Source: Anaeromusa acidaminophila DSM 3853 (lineage in GTDB: Bacteria > Bacillota > Negativicutes > Anaeromusales > Anaeromusaceae). Taken from it: a stretch of 64,000 bases of DNA. The notes under the pieces are model-generated. The model worked only from the letters and a program-made list of their open reading frames with translations, had not been told where the DNA came from and searched no databases. The stretch is from the NCBI RefSeq assembly GCF_000374545.1, contig NZ_KB894599.1, forward strand, positions 1 through 64,000. Direction: 5' to 3'. This document shows positions 15,322 to 18,845 of the stretch, one piece after another (position 1 is the stretch's first letter; every line of letters starts with the position of its first letter). The position numbers and the translations under genes are program-made.

Positions 15322-15373
15322 CCAACAGGAGTAAAGGGAGTAGAGTGAGGGTGCAACTGAGGATTACGAGTTT
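15322..15373 (+). repeat. 3'-flank repeat, GAACAAGAG family, copy 2
   Basis: Begins 11 bases after the trpB stop: AACAGGAGTAAAGGGAG, then GAGGGTGCAACTGAGG and ATTACGAG. The most diverged copy, recognised by the order of units and by placement. It is followed directly by hairpin element A. Confidence 0.45.
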
Positions 15374-15408
15374 TGAAAAGAAAATATAATTTAAACCAAT
15401 AGGAGGAG

Positions 15409-15558
15409 CTGCTGATTTACTGAGCACTCTGCCACACTGAGCAATTTTTTTGTTTGGCCAGAAAAGGGGACCGAGGGAATAGCGGCGCTATTTCGAGGTT
15501 TCCTTTTCACAGTCAGGCGGAAAAAGAGCCAGCGTGGCATGGGCTCATAAGTCAGCAG
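15409..15558. repeat. Long structured hairpin element, copy A
   Basis: About 150 nt folding into one nested hairpin: CTGCTGA / TCAGCAG (15409-15415, 15552-15558), TGAGC / GCTCA (15421-25, 15543-47), GCCACACTG / CAGCGTGGC (15431-39, 15530-38, one mismatch), GAAAAGG / CCTTTTC (15461-67, 15502-08), and an apical ATAGC GGC GCTAT. Copy B (18672-18828) has different stem bases that still pair, with the apex TAGCGGCGCTA, CGAGG and GGCGGAAAAAGA conserved. It lies in the convergent spacer between trpB and gluQ. Function unknown. Confidence 0.65.
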
Positions 15559-15562
15559 TTCC

Positions 15563-16510
15563 TTAGCGAAGGAAGCGCCAGGCCGTCTCGGAAACGATGA
15601 TGTCCTGGCGCGATATTTTTTTCAGGTCAAAAAGGTTAACAAGCTCCTGCGGCTGCGCTTCTTCCAACGTAGGCAACAAACCGGCCAGCCACGCCAATAG
15701 TCCAATAATCTTCTCCGCTCTTACGCCGCGTTCTCGCAAGACGGCCACAGCCAAAGCGCCATGTCGTTTAGACAGCCGCACTCCCTTTTCATCCACTAAA
15801 AGAGGCACATGCGAGAACAAGGGCGCAGCATAGCCCAACAGGCGATATAAATACAGCTGTCTCGGCGTAGAAGCCAGCAAATCCGCGCCGCGCAGTACAT
15901 GGGTAATACCCATTAGCGCATCATCTACCACGACTGCTAACTGATAAGCATGAACGCCATCAGAACGGCGAACGACAAAGTCGCCGCACTCTTGTCGTAA
16001 ATTTTGCCGCACTAAGCCATATACGCCATCTTCAAAAACAATCTCTTCTTCTGGTACTTTCAGCCGTAATGAAGGCTTCCTGGTAAGCTTGCTTCCCGCA
16101 ACACCACCCGCACAAGTTCCTTGATAAATTCGCTCGCCGTCTTCGCCGTGCGGGGCGGACGCCGCCAGCTCCGCTCGGGTACAATAACAAGGATAAATCA
16201 ATTCCTGCCGCCGCAGCCTCTGCAGCGCTTCCTCGTACAAACCACGCCGTTTATCCTGCTCATAAGGTCCATAGGCGCCGCCCAAATCGCCGCCTTCCTC
16301 CCAATCAAGTCCCAGCCAACGCAAATCCTTCTCTAAGCCCTCCACATACTCTGCTCTGGAACGATCAGGGTCCAAATCTTCCATACGCAGCACCAATTGG
16401 CCTTTTCCGGCTCGCACTTGCAGCCAAGCCAGCAGCGCCGTCCAGGCATTGCCCAAATGCATCTGACCTGTAGGACTTGGGGCAAAACGCCCTCTCATTG
16501 TTTTTGACAA
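15563..16510 (-). CDS. gluQ: Glutamyl-Q tRNA(Asp) synthetase
   Basis: 315 residues, a truncated GluRS-like catalytic core without an anticodon-binding domain, which defines GluQ-RS (YadB). HIGH-type motif in APSPTGQMHLGNAW; zinc-site Cys in YPCYCTRAE and a later Cys; KMSKS-type motif GVRLSKRHGALA. It attaches glutamate to queuosine-34 of tRNA-Asp in the cytoplasm. TTG at 16510 has GGAG ten bases upstream; an in-frame ATG at 16498 is possible but lies far from the SD. Single gene, convergent with trpB; the 245 bases upstream hold no other recognisable gene. Confidence 0.9.
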   Translation of the reverse strand: MSKTMRGRFAPSPTGQMHLGNAWTALLAWLQVRAGKGQLVLRMEDLDPDRSRAEYVEGLEKDLRWLGLDWEEGGDLGGAYGPYEQDKRRGLYEEALQRLRRQELIYPCYCTRAELAASAPHGEDGERIYQGTCAGGVAGSKLTRKPSLRLKVPEEEIVFEDGVYGLVRQNLRQECGDFVVRRSDGVHAYQLAVVVDDALMGITHVLRGADLLASTPRQLYLYRLLGYAAPLFSHVPLLVDEKGVRLSKRHGALAVAVLRERGVRAEKIIGLLAWLAGLLPTLEEAQPQELVNLFDLKKISRQDIIVSETAWRFLR

Positions 16511-16755
16511 AACTACTTCTCTCCATCCCCTATCATTTATTGAAGAAAAAGATTCGCGCCAGCCTCATTGCAATCCTGCCGCTTGGCAAGAAAAACCGCT
16601 GCGCAAGCTTTGGACGCAGAAACCAAAGCAGCCTCAAGAAGTACATATTTCTTTTCGCAAGGAACAACAACGCGATTTAGCATCGACCACCGGACACTTT
16701 GTTGCGTTTTACCGCTTATTTTATGCATTTTTGTTTCAAAGCAGCCATTTTACTC

Positions 16756-16784
16756 TTGACGCGCAAATAAACCCATGGTATTCT
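16756..16784 (+). promoter_or_regulatory. Promoter of the methionine island
   Basis: TTGACG (16756-16761) and TATTCT (16779-16784) with a 17-base spacer, placed 29 bases before the first SAM riboswitch. No second promoter of similar quality is visible before the second riboswitch, so both are probably on one transcript. The stretch 16511-16755 before it shows nothing convincing. Confidence 0.65.
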
Positions 16785-16812
16785 CTTTATAAATTAAATA
16801 GTTGTTTTACCG

Positions 16813-16912
16813 CTTATCAAGAGAGGCTGAGGGACTGGCCCGATGACGCCCGGCAACCGGCAGAATTATGCAGTGGTGCCAATTCCAGCAGGCTAGCCGC
16901 CTGGGAGATAAG
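16813..16912 (+). ncRNA. SAM-I (S-box) riboswitch, copy 1
   Basis: Canonical S-box core: AAGAGAGGCTGAGGGACTGG, then CCCGATGACGCCCGGCAACC and GGTGCCAATTCCAGCAGG. P1 is CTTATC (16813-16818) with GATAAG (16907-16912). Binds S-adenosylmethionine and, when occupied, lets the downstream terminator form. 51 bases (16813-16863) are identical to copy 2 exactly 360 bases later. Confidence 0.96.
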
Positions 16913-16933
16913 AGGAGGGCATTTGTTTGCACC

Positions 16934-16967
16934 CCTTTTCTCTCCAGAGAAGAGGATTTTTTATTTT
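16934..16967 (+). terminator. Expression-platform terminator of SAM riboswitch 1
   Basis: Stem CCTTTTCTCT / AGAGAAGAGG with one G-U pair, then ATTTTTTATTTT. Its 5' arm can alternatively pair with the purine-rich 3' side of P1 (AGAGGAGGG), the expected antiterminator. Confidence 0.85.
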
Positions 16968-16992
16968 GCGGAAGTTGACAGGAGGTGCCGTC

Positions 16993-17136
16993 ATGGAACA
17001 AAAGGAATTTATTTTTTCACCCGAACAAGCCCATGGTCAGGAAGAGCAGGTGTTGGTGTTTTTAAGTGACGGCTCGGTTGTTACCTGCACTAGCCGCAGC
17101 GGCGACAGCTCGTTTCTTCCAACAAGCCGAACCTAA
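16993..17136 (+). CDS. Small ORF 1 controlled by SAM riboswitch (47 aa)
   Basis: A 47-codon frame with ATG at 16993 and a good SD (AGGAGGTG, seven bases away), starting 25 bases after the riboswitch terminator. The central part QEEQVLVFLSDGSVVTCTSR aligns with QEEEIVIVIRGGSIVSFTKR of the second small ORF (17335), sharing about half the residues with conservative changes elsewhere. The pattern of beta-strand, Gly turn, beta-strand recalls the C-terminal half of YezD/DUF2292 small proteins, which are often linked to sulfur metabolism; that link is tentative. No signal peptide or TM segment. It could act as a small protein or as a leader peptide whose translation matters. Confidence 0.65.
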   Translation: MEQKEFIFSPEQAHGQEEQVLVFLSDGSVVTCTSRSGDSSFLPTSRT

Positions 17137-17170
17137 TAGAAACCATACTTTTTAACTTCATATGTAAGTT

Positions 17171-17274
17171 CTCTTATCAAGAGAGGCTGAGGGACTGGCC
17201 CGATGACGCCCGGCAACCGGCAGGAAACTGCATTGGTGCCAATTCCAGCAGGCAGCTTGCCTGAAAGATGAGAG
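17171..17274 (+). ncRNA. SAM-I (S-box) riboswitch, copy 2
   Basis: Same S-box core as copy 1; P1 is CTCTTATC (17171-17178) with GATGAGAG (17267-17274), including a T-G pair. Differences from copy 1 are confined to the P3-P4 tips and P1 closing strand. It lies in tandem on the same strand. Confidence 0.96.
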
Positions 17275-17282
17275 ACGCACGG

Positions 17283-17319
17283 CAGGCCCGTTCGTCTCGG
17301 GGCCTGTTTTTTTTATTTT
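17283..17319 (+). terminator. Expression-platform terminator of SAM riboswitch 2
   Basis: CAGGCCC / GGGCCTG stem with a 10-base loop, followed by TTTTTTTTATTTT. Eight bases after P1 of the riboswitch. Confidence 0.92.
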
Positions 17320-17334
17320 CCGGAGGTGACCTTC

Positions 17335-17454
17335 ATGAATCCAAGTACGCCAAAGCCTCCTTGTGAGCCGACCTCGCAGGAAGAAGAAATTGTTATCGTC
17401 ATCCGCGGCGGCAGTATTGTTAGTTTTACAAAGCGCTTAATCGAAAAAAAATAG
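17335..17454 (+). CDS. Small ORF 2 controlled by SAM riboswitch (39 aa)
   Basis: A 39-codon frame, ATG at 17335, SD CGGAGGTG seven bases upstream, directly after the second riboswitch terminator. The N-terminus is Pro-rich (MNPSTPKPPCEPTS) and diverged, while EEEIVIVIRGGSIVSFTKR matches the core of small ORF 1. It ends 20 bases before the transsulfuration gene, so the two are almost surely co-translated. Conservation of frame, SD and core motif between the two copies argues that the peptide itself is selected. Function not known; possibly a YezD/DUF2292-like small protein. Confidence 0.65.
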   Translation: MNPSTPKPPCEPTSQEEEIVIVIRGGSIVSFTKRLIEKK

Positions 17455-17474
17455 TATAACAAGGAGTGACTACC

Positions 17475-18629
17475 ATGCATATTTCTTCACAGCTTGTTCA
17501 AATCGGCTGCAAAGCCGATCCCCGTACCGGTGCGTTGAGCACCCCAATTTATCAAACCGCGTCTTTTCGCCACCCTGCTTTGGGAGAAAGCACTGGCTAT
17601 GATTACACTCGCAGCGGCAACCCGACAAGGCAAGCTCTCGAAGAAGGACTAGCTCGCCTTGAAGGAGGCGCTGGCGCCTGTGCTTTCTCTTCCGGTTTGG
17701 CAGCAATTACCACGCTTTTAATGCTCTACAAAAATGGGGACCATTTGATTGTCGTCGAGGACTGTTACGGCGGCACTTACCGCCTTTTCGAGCAAGTACT
17801 GTCCCGCTTTGGCTTGACTGCCTCCTATGTTGACGCTACCACCCTAGACGCCATCAGGCAAGCCCTTCGCCCTGAAACCAAAGCCGTCTTCATTGAAACT
17901 CCTACCAACCCCCTCTTGCGCATTGTTGATTTGCGGGCCTTGGCTTCGTTTTGCCAAAATAACAGCCTTCAGCTTATTGTGGATAATACTTTTTTGACAC
18001 CCTACTTCCAGCGTCCCTTGGAACTTGGCGCCGACCTTGTCGTACATAGCGGTACCAAATACCTTGCAGGACACAACGACTTACTGTGCGGCGTTATCGT
18101 CGCCAAAGAACCAGAGCTCGCCGAAAAAGTAAGATTTCTGCAAAATGCTACTGGCGCCATTCTCAGCCCCAGCGACAGCTGGCTCCTCATACGCAGTTTA
18201 AAAACGTTAGCGCTGCGCATGGAAAAACACAACGCCAACGCCCTTGCCATTTCCCGCTGGCTGCTGGAACACCCCAAAGTCAGCCGCGTGTTCTACCCCG
18301 GCCTGCCGCTGCACAACGGCCATACCATCCATGAAAGCCAGGCCAGCGGCTACGGCGGCATGGTGTCCTTTGAAGTAACTGACCCGACACTGGTACCCCA
18401 AATATTAGCCAATGTCCAGCTCATCCAATTTGCCGAAAGCCTGGGAGGCGTTGAAACGCTGATTACCTTCCCTGCCGTACAAACCCATGCAGACATTCCC
18501 GCCGCCGACCGCGAACGCTTAGGCATCTCTGACCGCCTGCTTCGCCTGTCCGTCGGCATCGAAGACGCTAACGATCTCATCGCCGACTTAGGTCATGCCT
18601 TAGGGGAGCGAACAAGAGAATCGGAGTAA
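17475..18629 (+). CDS. metI: Transsulfuration PLP enzyme (cystathionine gamma-synthase / O-acetylhomoserine type)
   Basis: 384 residues of the Cys/Met-metabolism PLP family. YDYTRSGNPTRQALE near residue 43-57, ETPTNPLLRI at 141, the aldimine Lys195 in HSGTKYLAGH, and SLGGVETLITFPA near the C-terminus. Position first in a SAM-controlled unit, followed by a cystathionine beta-lyase paralogue, mirrors Bacillus metI-metC, so gamma-synthase activity on acylated homoserine is the best guess; gamma-lyase or sulfhydrylase is possible. ATG 17475 has AAGGAG eight bases upstream; a GTG at 17466 overlaps that SD. The last codons (GERTRESE) are encoded by a dispersed 3' repeat, so the tail is probably not functional. 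Confidence 0.85.
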   Translation: MHISSQLVQIGCKADPRTGALSTPIYQTASFRHPALGESTGYDYTRSGNPTRQALEEGLARLEGGAGACAFSSGLAAITTLLMLYKNGDHLIVVEDCYGGTYRLFEQVLSRFGLTASYVDATTLDAIRQALRPETKAVFIETPTNPLLRIVDLRALASFCQNNSLQLIVDNTFLTPYFQRPLELGADLVVHSGTKYLAGHNDLLCGVIVAKEPELAEKVRFLQNATGAILSPSDSWLLIRSLKTLALRMEKHNANALAISRWLLEHPKVSRVFYPGLPLHNGHTIHESQASGYGGMVSFEVTDPTLVPQILANVQLIQFAESLGGVETLITFPAVQTHADIPAADRERLGISDRLLRLSVGIEDANDLIADLGHALGERTRESE

Positions 18630-18652
18630 CTTGAGGGTACGATAGAGGACTA
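18606..18652 (+). repeat. 3'-flank repeat, GAACAAGAG family, copy 3
   Basis: GAGCGAACAAGAGAATCGGAG, then TAACTTGAGGGTACGATAG and AGGACTAC. Unlike other copies it overlaps the coding end of the upstream gene: the last eight residues and stop codon of the PLP enzyme lie within it. It is followed by hairpin element B, the same order as copies 2 and A after trpB. Confidence 0.6.
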
Positions 18653-18671
18653 CAAAGAACTATAAAACAAA

Positions 18672-18828
18672 GGCGCCGCTGCTTTCATGAGCACGCCGCT
18701 AAACCAAGGAGTTTTTTCGCCAGACGAGAAAGAAAACGCAGGCATAGCGGCGCTATACCGAGGCTTTCTGACAATGTCCGGCGGAAAAAGAACCGGTTTA
18801 GCGTGAGATGCGAGTAAAGCAACGTCGC
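18672..18828. repeat. Long structured hairpin element, copy B
   Basis: Same architecture as copy A with different stem sequences: GCTTT / AAAGC (18681-85, 18816-20), CAT / ATG, CACGC / GCGTG, CGCTAAACC / GGTTTAGCG (18697-18705, 18795-18803, perfect), AGAAAG / CTTTCT (18727-32, 18764-69) and apical ATAGC GGC GCTAT (18744-18756). It sits between two co-oriented met genes and ends just before the metC SD, so it would be in the operon mRNA. Confidence 0.65.
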
Positions 18829-18845
18829 TATAAGGAGGACTTCTT

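Follow-up and report, generated by a model that had tools for sequence, protein, structure and literature searches.

Two long hairpins in a 64,000-nucleotide stretch of the Anaeromusa acidaminophila DSM 3853 genome (contig NZ_KB894599.1, positions 1 to 64,000, hereafter the window), one behind trpB and the other inside a met operon, are best explained as copies of a palindromic, putatively non-coding mobile element resembling miniature inverted-repeat transposable elements (MITEs) and ERIC repeats, and as one branch of a family spanning several phyla (probability about 0.6). An element of this kind, about 160 bases long, is probably mobile. It is classed as MITE/ERIC-like rather than as a site-specific riboregulator because copies can be absent or reversed at the corresponding sites of sister genomes, have TA ends outside the genus and often abut stop codons. 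It is unusual for a MITE, since its core is more conserved than its ends and the fold of one strand is favoured. What is new is the covarying core conserved across phyla, the strand preference and the lineage-specific arms.

A sequence-only reading of the window had described two hairpins with a common apex and tract and with stems that differ but pair in both. Folding placed both hairpins where they had been seen, with limits running slightly beyond those first given:

15403-15564, + strand: element 1, a complete long hairpin flanked by trpB and a convergent glutamyl-tRNA-synthetase-like gene (folding).
15476-15497, + strand: apical core of element 1, GGAATAGCGGCGCTATTTCGAG, matching the GCAGGAATAG-N5-CTATTTCAA of other bacteria.
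18672-18829, + strand: element 2, a complete long hairpin flanked by two trans-sulfuration (met) genes (folding).
18740-18763, + strand: apical core of element 2, CAGGCATAGCGGCGCTATACCGAGG region, a sub-family in which the apical stem is changed.

Gene names in the window were read from translated frames and not from family searches. The RNA folding energies were -96.7 kcal/mol for element 1 (z -11.9) and -63.3 kcal/mol for element 2 (z -3.3), and in neither case was a shuffled sequence equally stable. Both elements are paired to their very ends, which thus form terminal inverted repeats. The apex and the common tract proved exact in both, the tracts TAGCGGCGCTANNNCGAGG and GGCGGAAAAAGA being identical, and the quoted compensatory stem differences were correct.

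The two elements are not alone. A BLAST search with element 1 gave 44 places in the genome, some of them hairpin copies and others separate copies of a repeat lying upstream of the hairpins. A family model (R1), whose consensus with 57 pairs was derived from 14 aligned hairpin copies, found about 43 copies in the Anaeromusa genome (G000) on the favoured strand, among them the window elements at 15401-15567 and 18668-18834; scores on the opposite strand at the same places were about one third as high. In three genomes of the same genus R1 gave at least 59-66 matches each, some weak reverse-strand matches included. Two genomes from another family of the class had at least 66, and several other genomes had 1-10. 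Copies in other families of the class have the same core and different ends, TAGGGAACCRCTGATTTA or TAGGGCGTGTCTTCAAA. Hairpin copies are concentrated in the origin-proximal half of the chromosome: of the 26 best-scoring copies listed for the congener G002, 23 are no further than a quarter of the genome length from dnaA, and many large contigs of the Anaeromusa genome are without R1 hairpin copies.

Additional copies bore out the covariation. Both-sided changes were present in 35 of the 57 pairs with 14 copies and in 46 of the 57 with 104 copies of the genus, in which 92.4% of cells were standard pairs. Double-changed cells numbered 735 in this set, against 217 +/- 22 after shuffling, and the covariation score was 0.417 (0.207 shuffled, no more than 0.105 with partners shifted); like all our shuffle-based counts, these are made optimistic by sequence relatedness. 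With the same reservation, 41 cross-phylum copies had double changes in 23 of 29 pairs, with 323 double-changed cells (113 +/- 8 shuffled) and a score of 0.656 (0.183 shuffled, 0.10-0.20 with partners shifted). Safer support comes from the recovery of the window copies by a cross-phylum model, described below, and from orthologous copies. Among 39 orthologous pairs, 32 were clearly the same element; both-sided changes at paired sites numbered 31, against 12.8 expected, and 21 of them preserved the pair. The orthologous element had 7.8% substitutions and 0.4% gaps, compared with 17.8% and 14% for its 5' flank, and with 10-12% substitutions for the more distant, mostly coding flanks.

The pairing is also asymmetric between strands. 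G-U pairs outnumbered A-C pairs by 77 to 26 in the wide set of 41 copies and by 339 to 132 in the genus set of 104, and the + strand fold was the more stable in 38/41 and 88/104 copies, respectively. At 18 independent orthologous loci the counts were 53 G-U versus 30 A-C (p=0.015), an excess seen for both C/T and A/G changes. Therefore, the single-stranded structure of one strand appears to matter, which is compatible with RNA or single-stranded DNA alike. Strong covariation and strand-asymmetric pairing together uphold the selection on structure first proposed from the two elements.

The same core is found far outside the class. A scan with the pattern GCAGGAATAGYRRNNCTNTTTCAA, using one bacterial genome per species, returned at least 119 stretches, from Rhodobacteraceae, Sphingomonadales, Hyphomicrobiales, Microbulbifer, Paraglaciecola, Thioalkalivibrio, Clostridia, Negativicutes, Verrucomicrobia and Gemmatimonadota; several of these records are metagenome-assembled, and two matches (L170, L192) look like coincidences within coding sequence. 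The common core reads [P1]CAAGG[P2]GCAGGAATAG..CTATTTCAA[P2']AACGCAG[P1'] in Alpha- and Gammaproteobacteria, Clostridia, Negativicutes, Verrucomicrobia and Gemmatimonadota. Because the wide set was gathered with a fixed core pattern, the queried letters are necessarily invariant in it; beyond them the copies have in common CAAGG ahead of the inner stem and ACGCAG behind it. Positions 1-7 of the inner stem were paired in 457 of 567 cells, versus 221 +/- 11 with shuffled partners. A model built from the 41 cross-phylum copies, none of them from the window (R2), matched exactly the two window elements when run over the 64 kb (15422-15549, E=4.6e-12; 18689-18813, E=7.1e-12). The spread is patchy: the exact 18-base core occurred in one of 399 genomes drawn from the phylum, and its reversed control in none of the 399. 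Eleven plasmids carry copies, as found with a Rhodobacteraceae copy as the query. The core had no match in 2.9 million viral contigs, nor did the Rhodobacteraceae copy in phage genomes, and a phage origin was rejected. Three Rhodobacteraceae copies of 266-268 bp (L306, L313, L322) hold a second, inverted and degenerate apical core (ATAGAGCCACTAT-like), largely complementary to the first, so that the two apices could pair together.

Several features of a mobile element were observed: the units are short and dispersed in many copies, they have terminal inverted repeats, and they are present at some orthologous sites and absent from others. Length is constant within a host group (162 nt in Gammaproteobacteria, 266-268 or 311-313 in Rhodobacteraceae, mostly 166-168 in one group of Negativicutes); full-length units thus cover 162-313 nt, and ends-only forms of 46-79 nt were also found. 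The ends consist of TA and then G, with TA at both ends in many copies outside the genus and exact inverted ends in other hosts. The terminal arms vary between host groups, and conservation is higher in the core than at the ends. One copy (L036) is absent from the orthologous site in the three congeners G001, G002 and G003, where a gene's own stop codon is found instead. In G002 the met-operon copy has the reverse orientation, and the site after trpB is occupied in sister genomes by different, nested or partial copies.

In about 20 of 86 wide-scan copies, among the matches listed, a long upstream open frame stops exactly at the first TAG of the element. In the genus, with genes taken from simple open-frame predictions, the 3' end of the element lies at a median of 1 nt from coding sequence and the 5' end at a median of 129 nt. 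In the Anaeromusa genome the 3' end falls just before a Shine-Dalgarno sequence or start codon in about 10 of 39 copies, and at the stop codon of a convergent gene in about 20. Both situations are met in the window: the 3' arm of element 1 overlaps the stop codon (15563-15565) of the convergent glutamyl-tRNA-synthetase-like gene, and element 2 ends close upstream of the second trans-sulfuration gene, just ahead of its Shine-Dalgarno sequence and start codon (18846).

The sequence-only reading had treated a structured RNA and an ordinary MITE as alternatives, the latter to be recognised by a loss of covariation or by inverted ends with target duplications. The family largely fits the description of a MITE, being dispersed, with palindromic ends, TA boundaries outside the genus and presence/absence at orthologous sites, and the covariation persists. 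The structured, conserved core and the mobile-element-like repeat are both true. Of the implied new RNA class at two loci, the structure and the lack of an Rfam match hold, and a riboregulator limited to these sites is an incomplete description, since the family is dispersed.

Several observations weigh against a MITE/ERIC-like mobile element. At the empty site of L036 the gene side is clear and the 5' side differs, so that no clean TA duplication is seen. Within the genus of Anaeromusa, TA is often missing from one end of a copy or from both. At seven orthologous sites the orientation is the same and the sub-family is different, for which random insertion offers no simple explanation. In the complete lists for the three genomes G041-G043 and at about 40 sampled loci, no autonomous element carrying these ends was seen. 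The low in-place substitution and the one-sided placement at gene ends suit a host function better than neutral insertion. As for the swapped sites, the pairs L031/L254, L256/L297, L059/L261, L236/L254 and L279/L289 agree in site and orientation and differ in sub-family between sister genomes, at 59-66% identity; sub-family swaps at orthologous sites suggest replacement by recombination or repeated insertion. The complete lists of G041-G043 contained no inverted same-end pair 0.6-3 kb apart, and the sampled loci gave one 740-bp end pair, one end being used with four mismatches.

The hairpins could instead be a structured RNA with a host function, acting as the + strand transcript either in cis (an mRNA leader or an intercistronic processing or stability hairpin) or as a small-RNA family, the copy number reflecting recruitment together with mobility. 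The G-U bias of the + strand, the excess of double changes at paired sites in orthologues, the better conservation of the element than of its 5' flank, and the position of the 3' end at translation starts or convergent stop codons all agree with this. However, only 19 of 104 copies are co-directional with both neighbours and 50 are antisense to both, so the favoured strand often lies outside the host mRNA. Moreover, upstream promoters are not enriched (46 TATAAT-like matches, versus 45 in shuffled sequence), no + strand promoter-like site precedes either window element, and no gene class common to the neighbours of the copies was seen. We regard such an RNA as unlikely. An ordinary neutral MITE would account for the TA ends, the palindromic arms and the ends-only derivatives, and template switching from arm to arm, which is known to create matched changes in inverted repeats, could mimic compensation with no selection on structure. 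Template switching gives Watson-Crick pairs, however, and would remove internal loops, whereas the loops are conserved across phyla; G-U exceeds A-C about 3:1; and the core is conserved while the arms vary by host group, the opposite of what is expected for a MITE recognised through its ends. The chances of this explanation appear small. Smaller still are those of a dispersed protein-binding DNA site that organises the chromosome, selected as a cruciform, with copies mainly in the origin-proximal half. Such a role would fit the 23 of 26 G002 copies near dnaA and the many large contigs devoid of copies, but that clustering relies on best-scoring copies, the same copies show a weak replication-orientation bias (7 of 26 co-oriented), and a double-stranded site gives no reason for an excess of G-U over A-C on one strand.

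For the MITE/ERIC-like element itself, the following scheme can be proposed. Each copy is one long imperfect hairpin, usually bounded by TA, with arms specific to the host group and a common inner core. In the core, a covarying stem lies between two internal loops that mirror each other, the first with CAAG facing CGCAG and the second with CGCAG facing CAAG; the cap is an AATAG/CTATT apex. Insertion may take place at TA sites, often those of stop codons, where the first base of the element, G or A, would restore TAG or TAA; insertion would be harmless because the stop codon is rebuilt. The core may be kept in structure rather than in sequence because the single-stranded hairpin of one strand, as RNA or single-stranded DNA, is recognised. 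We infer that an enzyme supplied in trans moves the element and that the hairpin serves as substrate for this enzyme and/or as an RNA processing signal. More speculatively, and with odds we put well below even, there may be a multi-phylum class of mobile elements conserved in a strand-specific hairpin core and not in its ends, in which the enzyme recognises folded RNA or single-stranded DNA and inserts the element at TA sites of gene ends, the arms drift freely, and ERIC is a distant relative.

One structured core common to Proteobacteria and Firmicutes, in which covariation and strand bias can be measured, offers a common object for tests, and many scattered intergenic repeats could be brought together under one covariance model. 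Mutating or deleting the core, or using it as bait, could lead to the enzyme or RNA-binding protein responsible for its recognition. For annotation, the precise placement at stop codons is a practical point, and it suggests how such elements remain harmless.

Palindromic repeats of the ERIC type were recognised in about 1990; to our knowledge there is no agreed mechanism of movement or function for them, and we know of no transposase for ERIC. The ERIC, IRU or RU-1 repeats of Enterobacteria resemble the present element in being imperfect palindromes (about 127 bp) with TA ends in intergenic positions, and an orientation-dependent effect at the RNA level was reported in Yersinia (PMC2229807, PMC2759123). 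The published E. coli sequence also folds better on one strand (-61.8 versus -45.2) and has CAAG opposite ACGCAG inside, in the same strand sense, which we take as a lead (PMC2759123). Apex, arms and length nevertheless differ. R2 gave no match at E<10 to the E. coli ERIC locus in a 67-kb search (unfiltered 3.3 bits, E=0.34), and because R2 does not find ERIC the element was not filed under that name. Correia/NEMIS, RUP, RPE, YPAL/RU-2 and the Coxiella QMITEs are likewise short and non-coding, with inverted ends, mostly TA targets and stable hairpin transcripts; the description of each covers a single genus or a few genera, and some (RUP) have the terminal repeats of a known insertion sequence (PMC2229807, PMC10969869, PMC5896051). 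Here, in contrast, copies from different phyla have an internal covarying core in common and differ in their arms, and no parent insertion sequence was found in the lists and loci searched. The Caulobacter CIR repeats, also multi-copy structured intergenic repeats, in alphaproteobacteria, are set apart by their description in a review as two-arm structures around GANTC sites, versus a single hairpin core (PMC2229807). REP/BIME sequences are intergenic palindromic repeats in many copies as well, but they are 20-40 nt long with a tagged end and are linked to RAYT transposases (PMC3733652), whereas full-length elements are 162-313 nt here.

The earlier failure to match the hairpins to a known RNA class was borne out with Rfam 15: in searches at gathering and relaxed thresholds, neither the hairpins of the window nor 16 loci of other bacteria reached the gathering cut-off of any family. 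The sole low-E match, a plant miRNA model, scored 23.8 bits against a cut-off of 80 and is a generic long-hairpin match. The class sRNA-Xcc1 was also considered, and no Rfam family matched. A transcription terminator was rejected (no U-tract after the hairpin and no + strand terminator-like site in either region), as was a promoter belonging to the element, given the lack of enrichment. The core and terminal sequences were not found in the open-access papers searched, although subscription papers, figures and supplements may still hold descriptions; we found no sign of prior cataloguing as one family.

The surroundings of the two elements contain further repeats:

15323-15371, + strand: short directional repeat CAACAGGAGTAAAGGGAGTAGAGTGAGGGTGCAACTGAGGATTACGAGT of the "GAACAAGAG family", 5' of element 1.
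15372-15401, + strand: spacer with a seeming remnant of an older, different element (GAAAAGAAAATATAATTTAAACCAATA), from comparison with G001, G002 and G003.
18610-18655, + strand: short directional repeat GAACAAGAGAATCGGAGTAACTTGAGGGTACGATAGAGGACTACAA, 5' of element 2.

The spacer position is occupied by another copy in the sister genomes. The repeat that had been noticed just upstream of both hairpins is real, and the association is general: of 104 hairpin copies, 42 have this short purine-rich sequence (about AACAGGAGTAAAGGGAGTAGAGGGAGGGTACGA) on their 5' side and in the same strand, versus 3, 3 and 1 in the other three arrangements. About 30 copies of it occur in the Anaeromusa genome, often alone. 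Another short repeat family, around CGGACCGGCTTGCTCCAATAAAAGTCTCAAATACAAGCA, was seen in the flank of L050 (query 1542-1595), with dozens of copies in congeners, the origin-distal half included.

Element 2 lies downstream of two S-adenosylmethionine (SAM) riboswitches, identified by an Rfam search of the window. These stand in tandem (16811-16914 and 17171-17274), both ahead of the first met gene, and each is followed by a small open reading frame, 16993-17136 (47 aa) and 17335-17454 (39 aa), respectively. The two peptides are alike (9/26 identical, E=5e-06 for the pair), and to judge from their sequences the two sets are perhaps a duplicated unit of riboswitch and small protein.

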